From a virus, in IMG/VR virus record IMGVR_UViG_3300044912_000678, positions 1 through 64,000 of that record: 64,000 nucleotides of DNA, one strand, 5' to 3'. Made by a program: the position numbers and the translations under genes. This document shows, piece after piece, positions 46,548 to 64,000 of the stretch (position 1 is its first letter; every line of letters begins with the position of its first letter). Below the pieces are notes generated by a model. The model was not told the DNA's origin, made no database searches, and saw only the letters and a program-made list of their open reading frames with translations.

Positions 46548-46814
46548 ATGTCGAATGGAAATTGGTTTAATTTCATGTCCAACCCGATGGCTCATTACAT
46601 TAAAAAATCAATGTTTGAACTATTAAAAGAGCGATATGGAAAACACGAACAAATAATTGATAGAATTGGAAATTCTCTTACCACCGAAAAAGATATGAAA
46701 GATTTTATCGCTATGATGATTGACACCTATGAAGTTGGGTTCATCAGAGCTATTGACGAACAAAGAGATAAATTAGAAAAACTTGGTTTGGGAGTAAGAA
46801 TTACAGGAAAATAG
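46548..46814 (+). CDS. Small hypothetical protein
   Basis: An 88-residue protein with aromatic start MSNGNWFNFMSNP and a helical rest ('LLKERYGKHEQIIDRIGNSLTTEKDMKDFIAMMIDTYEVGFIRAI'). RBS 'ggagaa'. Convergent with the next gene. Function unknown. Confidence 0.5.
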   Translation: MSNGNWFNFMSNPMAHYIKKSMFELLKERYGKHEQIIDRIGNSLTTEKDMKDFIAMMIDTYEVGFIRAIDEQRDKLEKLGLGVRITGK

Positions 46815-52778: not shown

Positions 52779-55130
52779 ATGGCGATACTTAGAGGTTTTC
52801 CACCATCAAACACAATCAGTCCAAGTGTTCGCATTGCCGAAAAGGACTTGAGTTTTGTCGCACCAGAGCAATCTTTGCACAGGGCGGCTTTAATTGGATT
52901 CGCAAGCAAAGGTCCAATTAATATTCCTACTATAATTGCAAGCCAAAGACAGCTTCGTAGAACCTTTGGTAATCCTCATCCAGAAAATGGAGATCCATAT
53001 CTTATCTACGCTGCAGAAAGTTATTTGCTTATTGCAAATGAATTGTATGTTGTTCGTGTTGCAGATACCGATCCAGTTAGCGATGAATCTGCGACTATGG
53101 CAGAAGTAGAAGTTCCTTCTGCTGGTACAATTATCGAAATTGTTTCTGATACTCCTTCACCATATGTTTTCGATCAAACTAGCTTTTTCCGTTGGAGACT
53201 TAATGGTGTACTCAGCGAAAGAACTTTGATAGTTGAAGAAAATGGCACAGGTTACGATACAGATGAACTTGTAGAATTACTGAACGATCAAATTGATTTT
53301 CAGAATGATGGCATTCAATTTTTTGGTGGAGCAGATGATAATATAGGAATAAGAACTCTTTGGGCTTATGGTCCTTCTGCAGAACTTGAATTTGTTGCTG
53401 TACAGAACTCCATTTGTGGTTCCGAAGGATCTACTGGTCTTGGAACAGATATGTTAGTTGCTGAAATCCAAGGCACTGCGTCTCATTATCCCGATGTTAC
53501 TTATACAACATCAGGGTATTATAACTTTGATGGATTAACTGGCATTACTCTCAATATCGTTGTTGATGGAACAGATAATGTTCTTATCGACAATGTAGTT
53601 CAAGTTATTGATCTTTCAGCCTTTGACGGCATGGGCGATGTAGATATTGATGATATCGTTACTGAAATCAATAGCCAAGTAGAAAGTGGAAGTCTTCCCG
53701 GTGGTTGGATAGCTTCTGTATTTGGAGGAACATCTTTGAAGTTTGAAACGCTTCATAGTGGTCGTGATGCTAGATTGCGTATTAAACCAGATAGCACTGG
53801 CGAACTTATATTCGGATTGCCGACAACAACCGCAAGTGGTGACACTCCTCCCGGCGATATGAGTGAGGCATCCCTTTGGACATTTGGTAGAGTGGCTGGC
53901 GATACCAATAACGATGGATCTATTTCTTTCTTGGTTACTGCAGACTCAGTTGGTATTGAAGGAAACTTCACTCAAGTTGTTGTTAAAAACAACACTCGTG
54001 ACAGCAATTGGATTCTAGAAGTTTACAACAATGGAAATCAAGTAGAATCTTGGGGTCAACTCACAAAAGATTCTGCAAGTACATTCTATATTGGAAGCTA
54101 CTTATCTTTAGTATCTGATTATATTCGATCAGTAGACAACACAGATGTTCTTGCTGGACCCGCAGACGGAACATATACATTGTCTGGTGGTTCTGATGGT
54201 ATTCCTTCAGATCCAGATTTACAAGATTCTTTATTGATCGGTAGTTCTGTTGGATACAGTGGTATTTATGCTGTATCTGAATCTGAACAATATGACATCG
54301 ATTTAATTGCGGTTCCCGGACATAGCAGCACGACTGTAGTGACAGAATTGCTTTACATGTGTCAAAATTTCCGCCAAGACTGCATGGCAATTATTGATGC
54401 TCCATTCGGCTTGACCGTAAATGAAATCATTGCATGGCAAAATGGAACTCATCCTTTAAACACCACTAGATTCGATAGTGACTTTGGTGCGCTTTACTGG
54501 CCATGGGTTCGTATTCGTGACAACTTCAACAGAGTAGACATTTGGGCGCCACCTAGCGGATCTATAATGGCAGTTTATGCACAGAGTGATCGCTTGGCTC
54601 GTCCTTGGTTTGCTCCTGCAGGTATCACCCGTGGTGTTGTTCCCGGTATTAATGATGTTTATTCTCGCCCTTCGCAAGAAGAAAGAGACTTGATGTATGG
54701 CTATAGGAACTGCATTAATCCTATCGTACAGTTTGTAGATACTGAAGGTTTCGTGGTTTGGGGTCAGAAAACTATGCAGAGAAGACCCACTGCTCTTGAT
54801 CGTGTAAATGTAAGACGCTTAATGTTTTATATTGAAAAGCAAATCAAGGCTAAGTCACGAATTCTATTGTTTGAACCACATGATGAACAATTTAGAGCAG
54901 AGTTCATAAGAATTGCAACTTTAGTTCTTCAAGAGGTTCAGACTGACCGAGGTATTACAGCCTTTAAAATTAAGGCTGATGCCGAACTCAATACTTCCGA
55001 TGTGATCGATAGGAATGAGTTTAGAGCAAGAATTGGTGTACAGCCAACAAGAGCAGTTGAATTCATGTTCCTTGAGTTCAGTATTCATCGAACCGGCAGT
55101 GACTTCACCGAAAGCACAGATGCATTCTAA
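52779..55130 (+). CDS. 18: Tail sheath protein, T4 gp18-like
   Basis: A 783-residue protein, longer than T4 gp18 (659). N-terminal 'FPPSNTISPSVRIAEKDLSFVAPEQSLHRAALIGFASKGPIN' and C-terminal 'VVWGQKTMQRRPTALDRVNVRRLMFYIEKQIK', 'FEPHDEQFRAEFIRIATLVLQEVQTDRGI' are diagnostic of contractile sheath. A long beta-rich insertion (~residues 110-470) includes 'SGGSDGIPSDPDLQ'. It contracts around the tube during injection. RBS 'gggaga'. Confidence 0.95.
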   Translation: MAILRGFPPSNTISPSVRIAEKDLSFVAPEQSLHRAALIGFASKGPINIPTIIASQRQLRRTFGNPHPENGDPYLIYAAESYLLIANELYVVRVADTDPVSDESATMAEVEVPSAGTIIEIVSDTPSPYVFDQTSFFRWRLNGVLSERTLIVEENGTGYDTDELVELLNDQIDFQNDGIQFFGGADDNIGIRTLWAYGPSAELEFVAVQNSICGSEGSTGLGTDMLVAEIQGTASHYPDVTYTTSGYYNFDGLTGITLNIVVDGTDNVLIDNVVQVIDLSAFDGMGDVDIDDIVTEINSQVESGSLPGGWIASVFGGTSLKFETLHSGRDARLRIKPDSTGELIFGLPTTTASGDTPPGDMSEASLWTFGRVAGDTNNDGSISFLVTADSVGIEGNFTQVVVKNNTRDSNWILEVYNNGNQVESWGQLTKDSASTFYIGSYLSLVSDYIRSVDNTDVLAGPADGTYTLSGGSDGIPSDPDLQDSLLIGSSVGYSGIYAVSESEQYDIDLIAVPGHSSTTVVTELLYMCQNFRQDCMAIIDAPFGLTVNEIIAWQNGTHPLNTTRFDSDFGALYWPWVRIRDNFNRVDIWAPPSGSIMAVYAQSDRLARPWFAPAGITRGVVPGINDVYSRPSQEERDLMYGYRNCINPIVQFVDTEGFVVWGQKTMQRRPTALDRVNVRRLMFYIEKQIKAKSRILLFEPHDEQFRAEFIRIATLVLQEVQTDRGITAFKIKADAELNTSDVIDRNEFRARIGVQPTRAVEFMFLEFSIHRTGSDFTESTDAF

Positions 55131-55152: not shown

Positions 55153-55737
55153 ATGGCACAGTTAATGCACTTAAATGAGTTGGCTACAAACACCAACTTG
55201 GTATTCAAAAGAAAATATAGATGGACATTCGAAGTTCAGTGGAACGGCAAAAAGGTCGGCAAAAACTTTGTAAAGTTGGCTAGTCGTCCTAATTTAACAA
55301 TCGAAGAAACTGAAATCAACTACTTGCACGGAAAAATGTGGATTCCGGGCAAGGCAAGTTGGGAAACCATCACTGTAACCTATTATGATGTTGCTCGCTC
55401 AACAGGCAACGGCATGACAGATCTTTACAGCTGGTTAGCTTCGATCTATAATTTTCAAGATCAAGGCGAAAAGATGATGCAGCAGACCACCGTCCAAGGT
55501 GATGGTAATAATGGTGGTTGGGCTGGCAAAGGTACTTTGCTTATGTATGATGGTTGCGGAACAGAACTCGAATCTTGGGAACTTCGAGGCGTTTGGCCAT
55601 CAGCCGTAAACTTTGGCGATCTCGACTATAGTTCTTCTGAAGAAGCAACTATCGAGTTGACCCTTAGATATTACCAAGCTATATACAACAATCTTTGTGG
55701 AACGAATCCTCAACCACAATGCATAGGTTGTTCATAA
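55153..55737 (+). CDS. 19: Tail tube protein, T4 gp19-like
   Basis: A 194-residue tube protein with 'NLVFKRKYRWTFEVQWNGKKVGKNFVKLASRPNLTIEETEINYLHGKMWIPGKASWETITVTYYDV', 'LLMYDGCGTELESWELRGVWPSAVNFGDLDYSSSEEATIELTLRYYQA'. It forms the inner tail conduit. It follows the sheath gene, as in T4, and a related second copy follows. Confidence 0.92.
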   Translation: MAQLMHLNELATNTNLVFKRKYRWTFEVQWNGKKVGKNFVKLASRPNLTIEETEINYLHGKMWIPGKASWETITVTYYDVARSTGNGMTDLYSWLASIYNFQDQGEKMMQQTTVQGDGNNGGWAGKGTLLMYDGCGTELESWELRGVWPSAVNFGDLDYSSSEEATIELTLRYYQAIYNNLCGTNPQPQCIGCS

Positions 55738-55811: not shown

Positions 55812-56324
55812 ATGGCACAAAGAATGAGTTTTGATTTCGGATTGGACAAAACAACCGCTTGCTTCAAACGCAAGTATAGATGGCTTTTAAAAATTGATGG
55901 TGTTTCGGCAGAAGGAATTGATGCTTTGCCTCCAACCAAATCTGGTCGTCCAAGCTTAACATTTAAAAGCATGGAAGCACAACATTTTCATGAAACCATT
56001 TATTTTCCCGGCAAACCAGATTGGAAACCTATAAATTTAACTTTATTTGATTTAAAAAAAAACAAACATCCAGTAATAGAATGGATCAATGAATATTACG
56101 AAGTAAATTCTTCTGGTGTCAAACTTAAAACTGCGACCAATGGATTTAAAAAACAAGGAAAATTAGAACTATATGATGGCTGTGGCGAAATAATAGAAAA
56201 GTGGATATTTGAAAACATGTATCCAGAAACAGTAGAATTCGGTGAATTAGATCACAGCGATTCAAATATAATTTATGTAGATCTTAGCTTAAGATACGAC
56301 AGAGCTTATTATGAGCCAGTTTAA
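55812..56324 (+). CDS. Second tail-tube-like protein
   Basis: A 170-residue paralogue of the tube protein: 'CFKRKYRWLLKIDG', 'RPSLTFKSMEAQHFHETIYFPGKPDWKPINLTLFDL', 'GKLELYDGCGEIIEKWIFENMYPETVEFGELDHSDSNIIYVDLSLRYDRAY'. It is separated from the first copy by a terminator, so it may be expressed at another level and act as a tube initiator, terminator or minor tube subunit. Confidence 0.85.
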   Translation: MAQRMSFDFGLDKTTACFKRKYRWLLKIDGVSAEGIDALPPTKSGRPSLTFKSMEAQHFHETIYFPGKPDWKPINLTLFDLKKNKHPVIEWINEYYEVNSSGVKLKTATNGFKKQGKLELYDGCGEIIEKWIFENMYPETVEFGELDHSDSNIIYVDLSLRYDRAYYEPV

Positions 56325-60525: not shown

Positions 60526-61563
60526 ATGGCAGATAGTAATTTGAACAAAGAAGGAAGCCCAATCAACATTCAAGGGAATGTACCACAAGAATTTTTGCAA
60601 GTTTTAAAAAATCAAGGAAGTCAAGGCAATCAAGATGCTCCACAATCTACCTTGCAAAAACCCAATCAATCTTTTGCAAATTTGCGAGATAGGGATAATG
60701 GCAATACAAATGCTCCTAGTGTGGCTAAAGCACCATCGTCATATCCGCAAAACAATCAAAGTGGAAGACTTAAAGAAATTCTTGAATCCCTCAAGGGATC
60801 ACTTGCACAATATGAAGAATTGCAATTACCATCAAAAGGAAGATTCTATGATGGTACAAATGGACCTGCAGATGGCATTATTCATATTCGTCCAATGACA
60901 GGCGAAGAAGAGCAAATTTTAGCGACTCCTAGATTTGTCCGTAAAGGACAAGCAATCAACATGATCTTTCAAAAATGCATTAAAGAAGATTTTAAGGCAG
61001 AAAATTTACTCACTGTAGATCGAACCTATCTATTACTTTATCTTCGTGGCATCTCTTATTCTCATAGCTACGATGTCGAAGTAAAGTGTCCCGAATGCGG
61101 TGCCAAATTCAGCACAAATGTTGATTTAAGTGCTTTGTTTGTAAATCAATGTCCTCATGATTTTGGACCAATTCTTGAAGATGTTTTGCCAAATTCAAAA
61201 TATCGATTCAAGTATCGCCTTTCAACTGGTCGTGATGAGCAAGAAATCAATGAATATCGTGAACGCAGAATGAAGATGTTTGGCGATAATGCTACTGATG
61301 ATACATTGACTTATAGAACTGCTCAACTATTAGAAGAAATTGATGGAATCACCGATAAGATGGAACTTCAAATTTTATTGAAGAACCTTCCAATCAATGA
61401 TGTTTCTTATATTCGTGGCATCATCAACGAGCCTCCATTTGGTGTAGATACAAATGTAGAAATTAATTGCCCAAGTTGTTCTGCAGAATTTTCAATCGAT
61501 TTGCCTCTTGAAGCAAATTTTTTCTTCCCCCGGAGGAAGAAGGAAAAGAACACCCAAGCATAA
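60526..61563 (+). CDS. 26: Baseplate protein, T4 gp26 / T4_baseplate family (frame-0 product)
   Basis: A 345-residue protein. After a Gln/Asn-rich start (~residues 1-75), 'LPSKGRFYDG', 'IHIRPMTGEEEQILATPRF', 'VDRTYLLLYLRGISYSHSYDVEVKCPECGAKFS' and a second 'EINCPSCSAEFSIDL' zinc-like pair match the T4 baseplate hub family. The last codons include the slippery site T TTT TTC (61518-61524); a -1 shift would replace the end (FFPRRKKEKNTQA) with a conserved-looking extension. RBS 'aggag'. Confidence 0.82.
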   Translation: MADSNLNKEGSPINIQGNVPQEFLQVLKNQGSQGNQDAPQSTLQKPNQSFANLRDRDNGNTNAPSVAKAPSSYPQNNQSGRLKEILESLKGSLAQYEELQLPSKGRFYDGTNGPADGIIHIRPMTGEEEQILATPRFVRKGQAINMIFQKCIKEDFKAENLLTVDRTYLLLYLRGISYSHSYDVEVKCPECGAKFSTNVDLSALFVNQCPHDFGPILEDVLPNSKYRFKYRLSTGRDEQEINEYRERRMKMFGDNATDDTLTYRTAQLLEEIDGITDKMELQILLKNLPINDVSYIRGIINEPPFGVDTNVEINCPSCSAEFSIDLPLEANFFFPRRKKEKNTQA

Positions 61564-61751
61564 CCCTTGGAAAAAACCTCCTAGAAGAAATATTTTTCTT
61601 TTCATATCATCTGCACCAAGACATGCAGAAGACATTGTTCATGCCAATCAATATCAGGCAATGGATGGTGCAGAGATTTATAGAGCAAAAAGAAAAAGAA
61701 AATCAAGCAATGGAAGCAGAGCGAAGAAAATCTAGTAGTAAAAGAAGGTAA
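61512..61751 (+). CDS. Frameshift (-1) extension of the gp26-like protein
   Basis: Reading the -1 frame from 61512, directly after an in-frame TGA at 61509, gives a strongly protein-like sequence: '..PEEEGKEHP', 'GKNLLEEIFFFSYHLHQDM', 'PINIRQWMVQRFIEQKEKEN'. No ATG, GTG or TTG occurs before ATG 61623, and this frame starts just where the slippery heptamer lies, so translation most simply comes from a -1 shift, yielding a 408-residue fusion. Downstream 'ggagg' (61532-61536) may aid it. Another frame-shifted product or an internal start cannot be excluded. Confidence 0.65.
   Translation, partial: SKFFLPPEEEGKEHPSITLGKNLLEEIFFFSYHLHQDMQKTLFMPINIRQWMVQRFIEQKEKENQAMEAERRKSSSKRR
61518..61524 (+). 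promoter_or_regulatory. Predicted -1 ribosomal slippery site (T TTT TTC)
   Basis: The heptamer is in the X XXY YYZ register relative to the gp26-like frame. It is 7 nt after the stop of the -1 frame and 37 nt before the stop of frame 0, the arrangement of lambda-type tail chaperone frameshifts. Confidence 0.6.
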
Positions 61752-61753
61752 AT

Positions 61754-62497
61754 ATGCCACTAAAAGAAAGATTGCAAAATCCAACTTGTAACGACACGAT
61801 TAGATTGCGTCTATTCTCTTACAATAGCAACAATCGAGCCAATTTACAAGACATTCAAAAAGTGGACATTTACACACTTGATCCTAACGAAATATCACAA
61901 GCCAATCCTGATGGTCGAAGGTTAGTTGTAACAATAGATGGTGCCGATGTGATTTCTGAATCCGCTGGATCTTATTATGTCGATATATCTGCAGATTCTC
62001 CACTTTACACAATTGGAGATTATGTTGATGTGTGGGCAGTAAGCTTTGAAAGCGACCATTGTTCTTTGGCGGAAATTCAAAATAGATTTAGAATTTATCC
62101 CAACTTGTGGTTCACAAGTCCTGTTCCGCCTGTTTATGATTTTTCATTTGGATTTAGACCCAACAGAATTGTAAAAGGGTCTAAAAGATATTTGGTGATC
62201 CAAATTTCACCAAATGTTCCACGAGGAGCCGATTTACTACCATATTACGAAAATCTCGCCATAGTCTCAGATTTGCGTATTTCAATCGAAAAAAACTGCG
62301 GGGATTGTGTCCCACAGGAAAAAGATCTCCGATTGGTAGTAGATCGGCAACTTGTGGATTATCGTGAAAAAATGTATGGGTATTACTTTATTGACACATC
62401 AGATTACGATTCTGGAATATACAATGTGTGGTTTGAATTACAATATGCAGAAAACACATTCATCTCTGAGAAAAATCAAATCCAAATTTTCGAATGA
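61754..62497 (+). CDS. Putative virion structural protein
   Basis: A 247-residue beta-rich protein with 'DTIRLRLFSYNSNNRANLQDIQKVDIYTLDP', 'GSYYVDISADSPLYTIGDYVDVWAVSFES', and 'IYNVWFELQYAENTFISEKNQIQIFE', suggesting Ig-like or tail-associated domains. Starts 3 nt after the frameshift product's stop. Place in the particle unknown. Confidence 0.6.
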   Translation: MPLKERLQNPTCNDTIRLRLFSYNSNNRANLQDIQKVDIYTLDPNEISQANPDGRRLVVTIDGADVISESAGSYYVDISADSPLYTIGDYVDVWAVSFESDHCSLAEIQNRFRIYPNLWFTSPVPPVYDFSFGFRPNRIVKGSKRYLVIQISPNVPRGADLLPYYENLAIVSDLRISIEKNCGDCVPQEKDLRLVVDRQLVDYREKMYGYYFIDTSDYDSGIYNVWFELQYAENTFISEKNQIQIFE

Positions 62498-62558: not shown

Positions 62559-63605
62559 ATGAACTTAGATTACAAGTTAGACAATTGGATAAAATACAAT
62601 CAAAATGTTTTGATGATTGGAAAGCATGGTGTTGGGAAAACCGCACTCATAAAAAAAGCATTTGAAAGAAATGGTTTGAAGTGGAGATACTTTAGTGCAG
62701 CCACTATGGACCCTTGGACTGATTTTGTTGGTATTCCAAAAGAAGCAACAAAAGTTATAGGCGATCAATCTGTAAGTTACATAAAGATGATTCGTCCTTT
62801 GGACTTTGTTCTTGGTGAAGTAGAAGCAATTTTCATGGATGAATTCAACAGGTCTCCAAAGAAAGTTAGAAATGCAGTTCTCGAATTGATTCAATTCAAA
62901 AGCATAAATGGAGAAAAATTTCCAAATTTAAGGATGGTTTGGGCTGCGATAAATCCAGAAGATGATCCAGAGTCTTACGATGTTGAAAAACTTGATATGG
63001 CTCAAATGGATCGTTTTGAAGTTCATAGAAAAATTGATTACAAGCCAGATGTTGAGTTCTTTAGAGTTAAGTTTGGAAAGACCATTGCGGACAGTGCAAT
63101 TGCTTGGTGGTCAGAATTGGATGATTCCACCAAAAATTTAGTATCTCCTAGAAGATTAGAATACGCTTTAAACTCATTTTCTAGACAAGGAGATCTAAGA
63201 GATCATTTGCCACAAGAAAGTGGTGTTTCGAAGCTTTTACAGGCTTTAAAAGACGGTCCTACAAGTGATAAATTAGCAAGATTTATGTCAGAAGAAGATT
63301 CTGGTGGTGCTAAAATTTGGCTAAAAAATGAGAACAATTTTTCTTCAGCATCAAAATATATCATAGAAAGCAAAACTCTTTGCGATTGGTTTTTGCCATT
63401 AGTTCCTAAAGAGAAAATCATATCATTAATGACTTCTAATGAAAAATTAGCAAAACATGTTATGTCTAATGTCAATTCTGAAAAAACATATATGGAAATT
63501 TGTAAAGAAATATTAAATGCAAAAACTGACTACAAGATGTCAAATAAAATTAAACGATTTATGACTCAAAATCCCGACATGGCAAAATTTTTATCTGAAG
63601 ATTAA
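62559..63605 (+). CDS. MoxR-type AAA+ ATPase
   Basis: A 348-residue ATPase with Walker A 'GKHGVGKTALIKKAF', 'SAATMDPWTDFVGIPK', Walker B 'AIFMDEFNRSPKKVRNAVLELIQF', 'MVWAAINPEDDPESYDVEKLDMAQMDRFEVH' (sensor 1 and arginine finger region), then a helical lid. MoxR ATPases act with VWA or metallopeptidase-like partners to remodel proteins; the next gene is such a partner. RBS 'ggagaa'. Confidence 0.88.
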   Translation: MNLDYKLDNWIKYNQNVLMIGKHGVGKTALIKKAFERNGLKWRYFSAATMDPWTDFVGIPKEATKVIGDQSVSYIKMIRPLDFVLGEVEAIFMDEFNRSPKKVRNAVLELIQFKSINGEKFPNLRMVWAAINPEDDPESYDVEKLDMAQMDRFEVHRKIDYKPDVEFFRVKFGKTIADSAIAWWSELDDSTKNLVSPRRLEYALNSFSRQGDLRDHLPQESGVSKLLQALKDGPTSDKLARFMSEEDSGGAKIWLKNENNFSSASKYIIESKTLCDWFLPLVPKEKIISLMTSNEKLAKHVMSNVNSEKTYMEICKEILNAKTDYKMSNKIKRFMTQNPDMAKFLSED

Positions 63606-63606
63606 T

Positions 63607-64000
63607 ATGCATAAGATAAATCCCGATGAATGGTTGGAAATATCCAACAAATTAGAACAACATCATGCAATCTTTTATAAGTTGTGGGCTGTTGGCAAAC
63701 CAATTTTTAAAGATGAGATTGAAACGGCAGCTATTGAATTTGATCGTAATGGAAATTATATACAATTTTCTTTCAATCCCATCTTCTGGTCTAACCTATC
63801 ATTAGATTCAAAGCTATTCGTAATATGTCACGAAATGTTACATGTAATACTAAATCATGGCAAAAGATCAAAAAATCTCAACATACAAAAAAAAGTAACA
63901 GCAAACATATGTCTTGATATTGTCGTAAATCATAGCTTGATAAATAATTTTGGATTTGAAAAAAATAATATAGAAGTAGGAATTCGTAATGCTATAAATT
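63607..64000 (+). CDS. Metallopeptidase-like (VWA-linked, DUF2201-type) protein, partial
   Basis: An ORF starting 1 nt after the ATPase stop and open at the right edge (131 codons seen). The zinc motif 'VICHEMLHVILNHGKRS' is followed by 'VTANICLDIVVNH', as in the putative metallopeptidase domain found next to MoxR ATPases. The rest, possibly a VWA domain, is outside the window. Confidence 0.75.
   Translation, partial: MHKINPDEWLEISNKLEQHHAIFYKLWAVGKPIFKDEIETAAIEFDRNGNYIQFSFNPIFWSNLSLDSKLFVICHEMLHVILNHGKRSKNLNIQKKVTANICLDIVVNHSLINNFGFEKNNIEVGIRNAIN

Follow-up and report, generated by a model that had tools for sequence, protein, structure and literature searches.

A conserved slip site and a -1 frame extension in a gp26-family gene of a phage: very probably a tail assembly chaperone with short and long forms

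Does the protein encoded by a gp26-like gene of a virus end at the gene's own stop codon, or does a fraction of it continue into a second reading frame that possesses no ordinary start? The window analyzed here, that is, the whole stretch of DNA under study, comprises 64,000 nucleotides (positions 1 to 64,000 of IMG/VR virus record IMGVR_UViG_3300044912_000678), and a preliminary description of it proposed that a programmed -1 frameshift extends a gp26-like baseplate protein. The analyses detailed below make it very probable that the product of this gene is a tail assembly chaperone (TAC) belonging to the T4 gp26 family and existing in a short and a long form, the latter being produced by a -1 slip on T TTT TTC. 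The features concerned are the following:

60526..61563, plus strand: gp26-like gene, putative short form (TAC-N-like), 345 amino acids; stop TAA at 61561-61563; PF12322 T4_baseplate
61518..61524, plus strand: slippery heptamer T TTT TTC, in phase, read in the sequence; kept in 124/124 loci with the 3' end
61524..61751, plus strand: -1 frame extension (putative TAC-C-like domain), 75 amino acids after the slip; stop TAA at 61749-61751
61525..61563, plus strand: two-frame overlap; zero-frame tail FPRRKKEKNTQA; third-position mismatch 0.37 versus 0.58 upstream

A slip site kept among homologues

Within the window, the first T of TTTTTTC is the third base of a codon in the gp26-like frame, and 12 codons separate the heptamer from the stop. 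From 61512, immediately after a TGA at 61509-61511, the -1 frame stays open until 62 codons past the zero-frame stop, such that the fusion comprises 408 amino acids, of which 75 are added (one homologous locus, L001, is identical to the window). The in-phase heptamer, the limits of the -1 frame, the 408-residue fusion and the gap of approximately 190 nucleotides that it fills had all been described beforehand, and each of these readings proved correct. Such a configuration is rare in the window: among 266 in-phase X XXY YYZ heptamers in stop-to-stop frames of at least 100 codons, a -1 frame reaching at least 40 codons past the stop occurs only here (AAATTTT and TTTTTTC, counted twice) and at 46787. 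At the latter position, on the plus strand, an in-phase TTTGGGA is accompanied by a -1 frame of 56 codons past the zero-frame stop, which may be due to chance.

Homologues were collected in two scans. In the first, IMG/VR was searched with the gp26-like protein, yielding 45 loci, 44 of which include the whole 3' end; in the second, the query was a diverse alignment, combined with a pattern lying far upstream of the slip site, and the best 80 of 414 confirmed relatives were retained, 79 with an intact end. Together, these searches by the gp26-like protein and by patterns away from the slip site produced 126 loci, of which 124 include the 3' end, counting the named huge phage LR756511. No locus was omitted for want of a slip site; those left out are loci whose gene end falls outside the contig (L042 in scan 1, L122 in scan 2, and L217, L229, L235 and L253 in the scans of +1 clades described below). 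Contigs are partly shared by both scans, and the 124 loci amount to 87 distinct 500-nucleotide sequences. A set of 73 representatives was defined by less than 90% identity over the 157 nucleotides up to the slip.

The preliminary description had suggested comparing related loci for the slip site and the -1 frame, and this comparison bore it out, as the in-phase T TTT TTC and the -1 extension are kept in all 124 loci of the window's clade. Specifically, both are present in 44/44 loci of scan 1, where the extension measures 72-91 residues and is represented by 28 distinct sequences, and in 79/79 loci of scan 2. Some of the loci behind the hidden Markov model (HMM) of the extension used in scan 2 reappear among those to which it was applied, which renders its E-values partly circular, while the open frame and the heptamer are free of this circularity. 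Most of the 44 extensions share the motif L-x-E-E-I-F-F-F-x-Y-H ... P-x-x-x-R-x-W ... R-F-I-x-Q-K-E-x-E-N. When a minimum of 45 open codons beyond the stop was required in the 73 representatives, the -1 frame qualified in 73/73, the +1 frame in 21/73, and read-through of the stop in 1/73. The codon preceding TTT TTC ends in T in all 73 (AAT in 58, AAC in none), the share of AAT among Asn codons of the gp26-like gene being 0.52, and in other open frames of at least 120 codons at the same loci T TTT TTC encodes 38 of 625 Phe-Phe pairs. Because the configuration is rare among the heptamers of the window and is kept among homologues, in which the -1 frame is always open, the T TTT TTC site and its -1 extension are confirmed as real and not a product of chance.

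The same comparison bears on the idea that a sequencing or assembly error, or gene decay, has split a single gene. A T homopolymer does sit at the break, but the break recurs in each of the 87 distinct sequences, with both sides conserved, and is found in named isolates as well. This recurrence refutes the idea, and its probability is virtually nil.

The extension as coding sequence

Several lines of evidence demonstrate that the extension evolves as protein under purifying selection. Firstly, in the part past the stop, the nonsynonymous rate (dN) is lower than the synonymous rate (dS) in 24/24 usable pairs, with a median dN/dS of 0.18. Secondly, mismatches past the stop are distributed over the three codon positions of the -1 frame as 0.33/0.20/0.55, and over the extension together with part of the overlap as.34/.20/.51. 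Thirdly, zero-frame third positions differ less within the overlap than in the single-frame region upstream (mismatch 0.37 versus 0.58). The AlphaFold2 model of the extension depicts a helical domain (helices 15-33, 38-42 and 46-78; mean predicted local distance difference test, pLDDT, 85.2).

Could the extension instead be a small protein in its own right, its translation beginning within the gp26-like gene or shortly behind it, from a non-ATG codon or by coupled re-initiation? Open reading frames (ORFs) of this kind are annotated in the phages Mel-JY01, PBECO4, BF and Sharanji, and in 12 of the 44 loci of scan 1 an ATG, GTG or TTG does precede the conserved core in frame: 9 loci have TTG or GTG alone, and 3 have an ATG one codon ahead of the E-E-x-F-F-F core, too late to account for the part between slip and core. 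The other 32 loci contain none of the three codons before the core, in agreement with the preliminary description, according to which the extension lacks a normal start codon upstream. Start codons are more common in the two +1 clades, where none of the three occurs up to 30 nucleotides past the stop in 28/71 and 7/23 representatives, and no ATG in 47/71 and 17/23. Re-initiation is possible in PBECO4, Sharanji and BF, where the zero-frame stop is overlapped by an ATG. Homologues encoding the extension as an ordinary ATG-started gene, which the preliminary description had named as evidence that would count against it, are thus absent from the window's clade and present outside it: the T4 long form is seemingly a separate gene, and the Asteriusvirus members PBECO4 and Sharanji have the overlapping ATG just mentioned. 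For the window's clade, a separate protein would leave both the invariant T TTT TTC and the third-position suppression in the overlap unexplained, and we consider it very improbable.

Family, predicted fold and proposed mechanism

The gp26-like protein matches PF12322 with an E-value of 1.8e-19 (70.7 bits versus a cut-off of 24.5) and the baseplate hub family phrog_150 with 2.5e-24; among predicted viral structures, its AlphaFold2 model (mean pLDDT 79.1) is most similar to the baseplate hub subunit of SP-15 (E 5.7e-20). When the model was aligned to 799 chains, the best matches were those of its residues 214-302, with YqbN 3klu ranking first (Z 6.8, root mean square deviation 2.9, 79 residues aligned) and HK97 2ob9 second (Z 5.6, deviation 4.0, 81 aligned). 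Both of these chains are TACs, and 3KLU is so named in a passage of PMC9603447. The third chain, 5ir0, a protein of a Vibrio element resembling phage-inducible chromosomal islands (PICI-like), reached Z 5.0 and the following one 2.6. Part of the short form is accordingly modeled with what appears to be a TAC-like fold. A plain Foldseek search of the PDB with the same model produced nothing at E<=0.001 (2ob9 had an E-value of 5.6). From the earlier name "gp26-like baseplate protein," then, the assignment to the gp26 family stands, by virtue of PF12322, while "baseplate" is an inherited label for which tail assembly chaperone is the better function.

For the extension, a sequence search for solved relatives produced no match, the same search with the gp26-like protein returning just a zinc-finger match at 0.22, and the extension model matched a single PDB chain, from a vesicle-tethering complex, at Z 2.8. 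The Pfam family Tma16 was matched by 15/24 members (best 5.8e-7) and was set aside as probably a charged-helix match, the window's copy scoring 18.9 bits, below the cut-off of 22.7. Leads alone are provided by DUF525 (11/24 members, best 0.0046), DUF6760 (4/24, best 0.0087) and phrog_20255, a family of unknown function (17/24, best 2.4e-5).

As to how two forms might arise and act, we infer the occurrence of slippage, its frequency and the roles of both forms as follows. The majority of ribosomes would halt at 61563, releasing a short form of 345 residues. A minority would move one nucleotide backward on T TTT TTC, with re-pairing of both Phe tRNAs, and would continue in the -1 frame to 61751, generating a long form of 408 residues with an added helical C-terminal domain. 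The two forms, which by their sequence would share a common N-terminus, may then divide the labor as lambda gpG and gpGT do: the role of the short form would be to cover the tape measure protein, and that of the added domain to bring in subunits of the tail tube.

Routes in other phages and known chaperones

Nine further named phages, chosen by us for fetching, extend the comparison beyond the window's clade, as do scans of two sister clades. The extension HMM applied to these sequences was iterative, its own hits at E<0.001 being added, among them Atu_ph07 and six +1 phages. In-phase TTTTTTC with a -1 extension is found in PBECO4, RaK2, PA5oct, XaC1, BF and Sharanji, and also in Atu_ph07; in RAS14 the heptamer is TTTTTTT, again with a -1 extension. 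For these extensions, E-values lie between 3e-11 (Atu_ph07, which also served for training) and 0.005 (XaC1), Sharanji being unscored. In RM378 and Slickus01, where the best matches (E 0.22 and 0.07) both fall in +1, no extension could be assigned with confidence.

The clade comprising Mel-JY01, immuto and LR756508 was analyzed through the best 80 of 600 relatives; here the extension domain lies in the +1 frame in 78/79 loci and in 71/72 representatives, including the three named phages. The junction, located before the zero-frame stop, reads TTT TTT TGG CCT in 52/71 representatives (e.g., L143 and L157; loci L143-L222). A lone -1 case inside this clade, L177, has the junction AAT TTC TTC TGG CCT, without a canonical heptamer. 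The set around SP-15, which includes LIS04 and GXN1, comprises 32 loci, with the extension in +1 in 26, in -1 in 4 and missing from 2 (23, 4 and 2 of 29 representatives); one of the four -1 loci, L236, is a short downstream piece and doubtful. The single relative found in bacterial genomes, on an Erysipelotrichaceae contig, has its extension in +1.

Tentatively, and with somewhat less than even confidence, these observations may be read as one chaperone family that keeps its C-terminal domain and changes the route by which it is attached: a -1 slip on T TTT TTC in several jumbo phages as well as the clade of the window, a +1 shift near TTT TTT TGG CCT or TTT TTT CGT CCN in two sister clades, and two genes in T4. 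The peptide F-F-x-P and a T run are common to the clades, and recoding may therefore have switched direction through a small number of base changes beyond the run.

Runs of T at many +1 junctions, together with the six-T run at the -1 site (often AAATTTTTT), also suit a different explanation, in which RNA polymerase adds a base within the run and the fusion is translated from an altered mRNA. Such transcriptional slippage would be expected to favor longer runs and to ignore phase, whereas the phase of the heptamer and its final C are constant in the 124 loci, as simultaneous tRNA slippage needs, and several +1 junctions have broken runs, such as TTT CTT TGG and TTT CGT. We therefore regard transcriptional slippage as improbable, albeit the least improbable of the alternatives to slippage by the ribosome.

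Frameshifting in tail assembly chaperones is classical, and what may be new here is the change of direction between clades. The likeness to lambda G/GT drawn in the preliminary description also fits in that T4 gp51 resembles a long form already fused, a portion of the model seems to adopt the fold of the HK97 TAC, and the gp26-family gene is flanked by tail tube and tape measure in three +1 relatives (SP-15, LIS04 and immuto). As with gpG/gpGT, the second part has no independent gene and part of the window's short form has a TAC-like predicted fold; the difference resides in the N-terminal part, which is a large PF12322 protein of T4-type phages (345 amino acids), and in the slip site, T TTT TTC. 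The frameshift scheme of long-tailed phage TACs is termed conserved "except T4" in a passage of PMC5009743.

T4 gp26 and gp51, the hub assembly chaperones, resemble the window's system in that gp26 is homologous to its protein and the gp51 C-terminus matches its extension, and differ in that they are two separate genes where the window has one gene and a conserved slip site. By hhalign, the window's gp26-like profile matches T4 gp26 with an E-value of 2.9e-10 and gp51 with 2.6e-4. T4 gp26 and gp51 are themselves paralogues (1.8e-20), and the C-terminus of gp51 beyond the gp26 part matches the extension profile at 4.9e-4 with a probability of 31.8, both of these E-values being for one comparison. 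On the strength of this paralogy and of the C-terminal match, T4 appears to produce its short and long forms, gp26 and gp51, from separate genes. In 2022, Vladimirov et al. reportedly identified the TACs of T4-type phages, and their work is said to suggest a route other than frameshifting there. The two-form reading of gp26 and gp51 agrees with the title of Vladimirov et al. (2022) and with the account of it given in a passage of PMC10885494.

A further parallel in arrangement is the TAC of Pseudomonas phage Adele and the Vandenendeviridae, likewise a myovirus TAC with a poly-T slip site and a -1 frame. It differs in its slip sequence, GTTTTT, and is likened here by arrangement. A passage of PMC12846349 describes the -1 frameshift at GTTTTT, with the -1 frame open in all alleles compared, and adds, citing Vladimirov et al., that TAC-N genes of T4-like phages are known to contain comparable poly-T -1 signals. 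Our literature search turned up no paper on the present slip site, most matches being unopened, and the site is not claimed as unreported.

The genes surrounding the gp26-like gene, whose start lies 4.2 kb beyond tail tube gene 2, are the following:

52779-55130: tail sheath gene, upstream of the tail tube genes
55153-55737: tail tube gene 1; phrog_4542, E 5.2e-26
55812-56324: tail tube gene 2, adjoining the first; phrog_4542, E 2.9e-23
61754..62497, plus strand: downstream gene, 247 amino acids, unknown family; ATG at 61754, 2 nucleotides past the extension stop

A counterpart of the last gene, an ORF of 238-249 amino acids, follows the extension in 41/44 relatives, the other three being truncated by contig ends. 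Further downstream lie an AAA+ ATPase gene (62559-63605), which matches PF07726 at its cut-off, and an ORF beginning at 63607 (3607-4902 in L259) with HEMLHVILNH and DTSGS motifs. The latter matches phrog_1314 (E 9.5e-26), whose label, HNH endonuclease, seems doubtful; the two resemble a MoxR/VWA-type pair.

Against a frameshifted chaperone several points must be set. Z scores below 8, such as the 6.8 and 5.6 of the top TAC matches, may reflect a common arrangement. The match of the gp51 C-terminus is weak by probability (31.8), and the dN/dS estimate uses 24 of 378 pairs, the rest lying outside usable synonymous divergence. The 76-kb record, possibly a fragment, showed no recognizable tape measure gene, either in ORF lists inspected by eye or in a PHROGs scan of eight ORFs. 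Lastly, with regard to RNA structure near the slip, a candidate stimulator pairing GGAGG/CCTCC and CCAAG/CTTGG looks good in the window and was rejected, with a z of -0.63, covariation in 1/24 predicted pairs and incomplete retention among the eight sequences compared. Over 73 loci, the structure test gave a mean z of -0.30 (7/73 below -2) versus 0.04 for control stretches (3/73), with p 0.07. No conserved downstream stem was found among the loci compared; pseudoknots and upstream Shine-Dalgarno-like elements were not searched for. Some -1 frameshift sites work without a stimulatory structure.

The relevance of the locus extends to annotation, in which a conserved protein domain can be lost or given a wrong label: LIS04 and RaK2 show a gap without annotation where the extension lies, and PBECO4 lists it as a hypothetical ORF of its own. 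Moreover, the deep conservation of a slip site across gp26-family genes of large phages favors the interpretation of gp26 and gp51 as short and long TAC forms, and provides an experimental handle on that interpretation.
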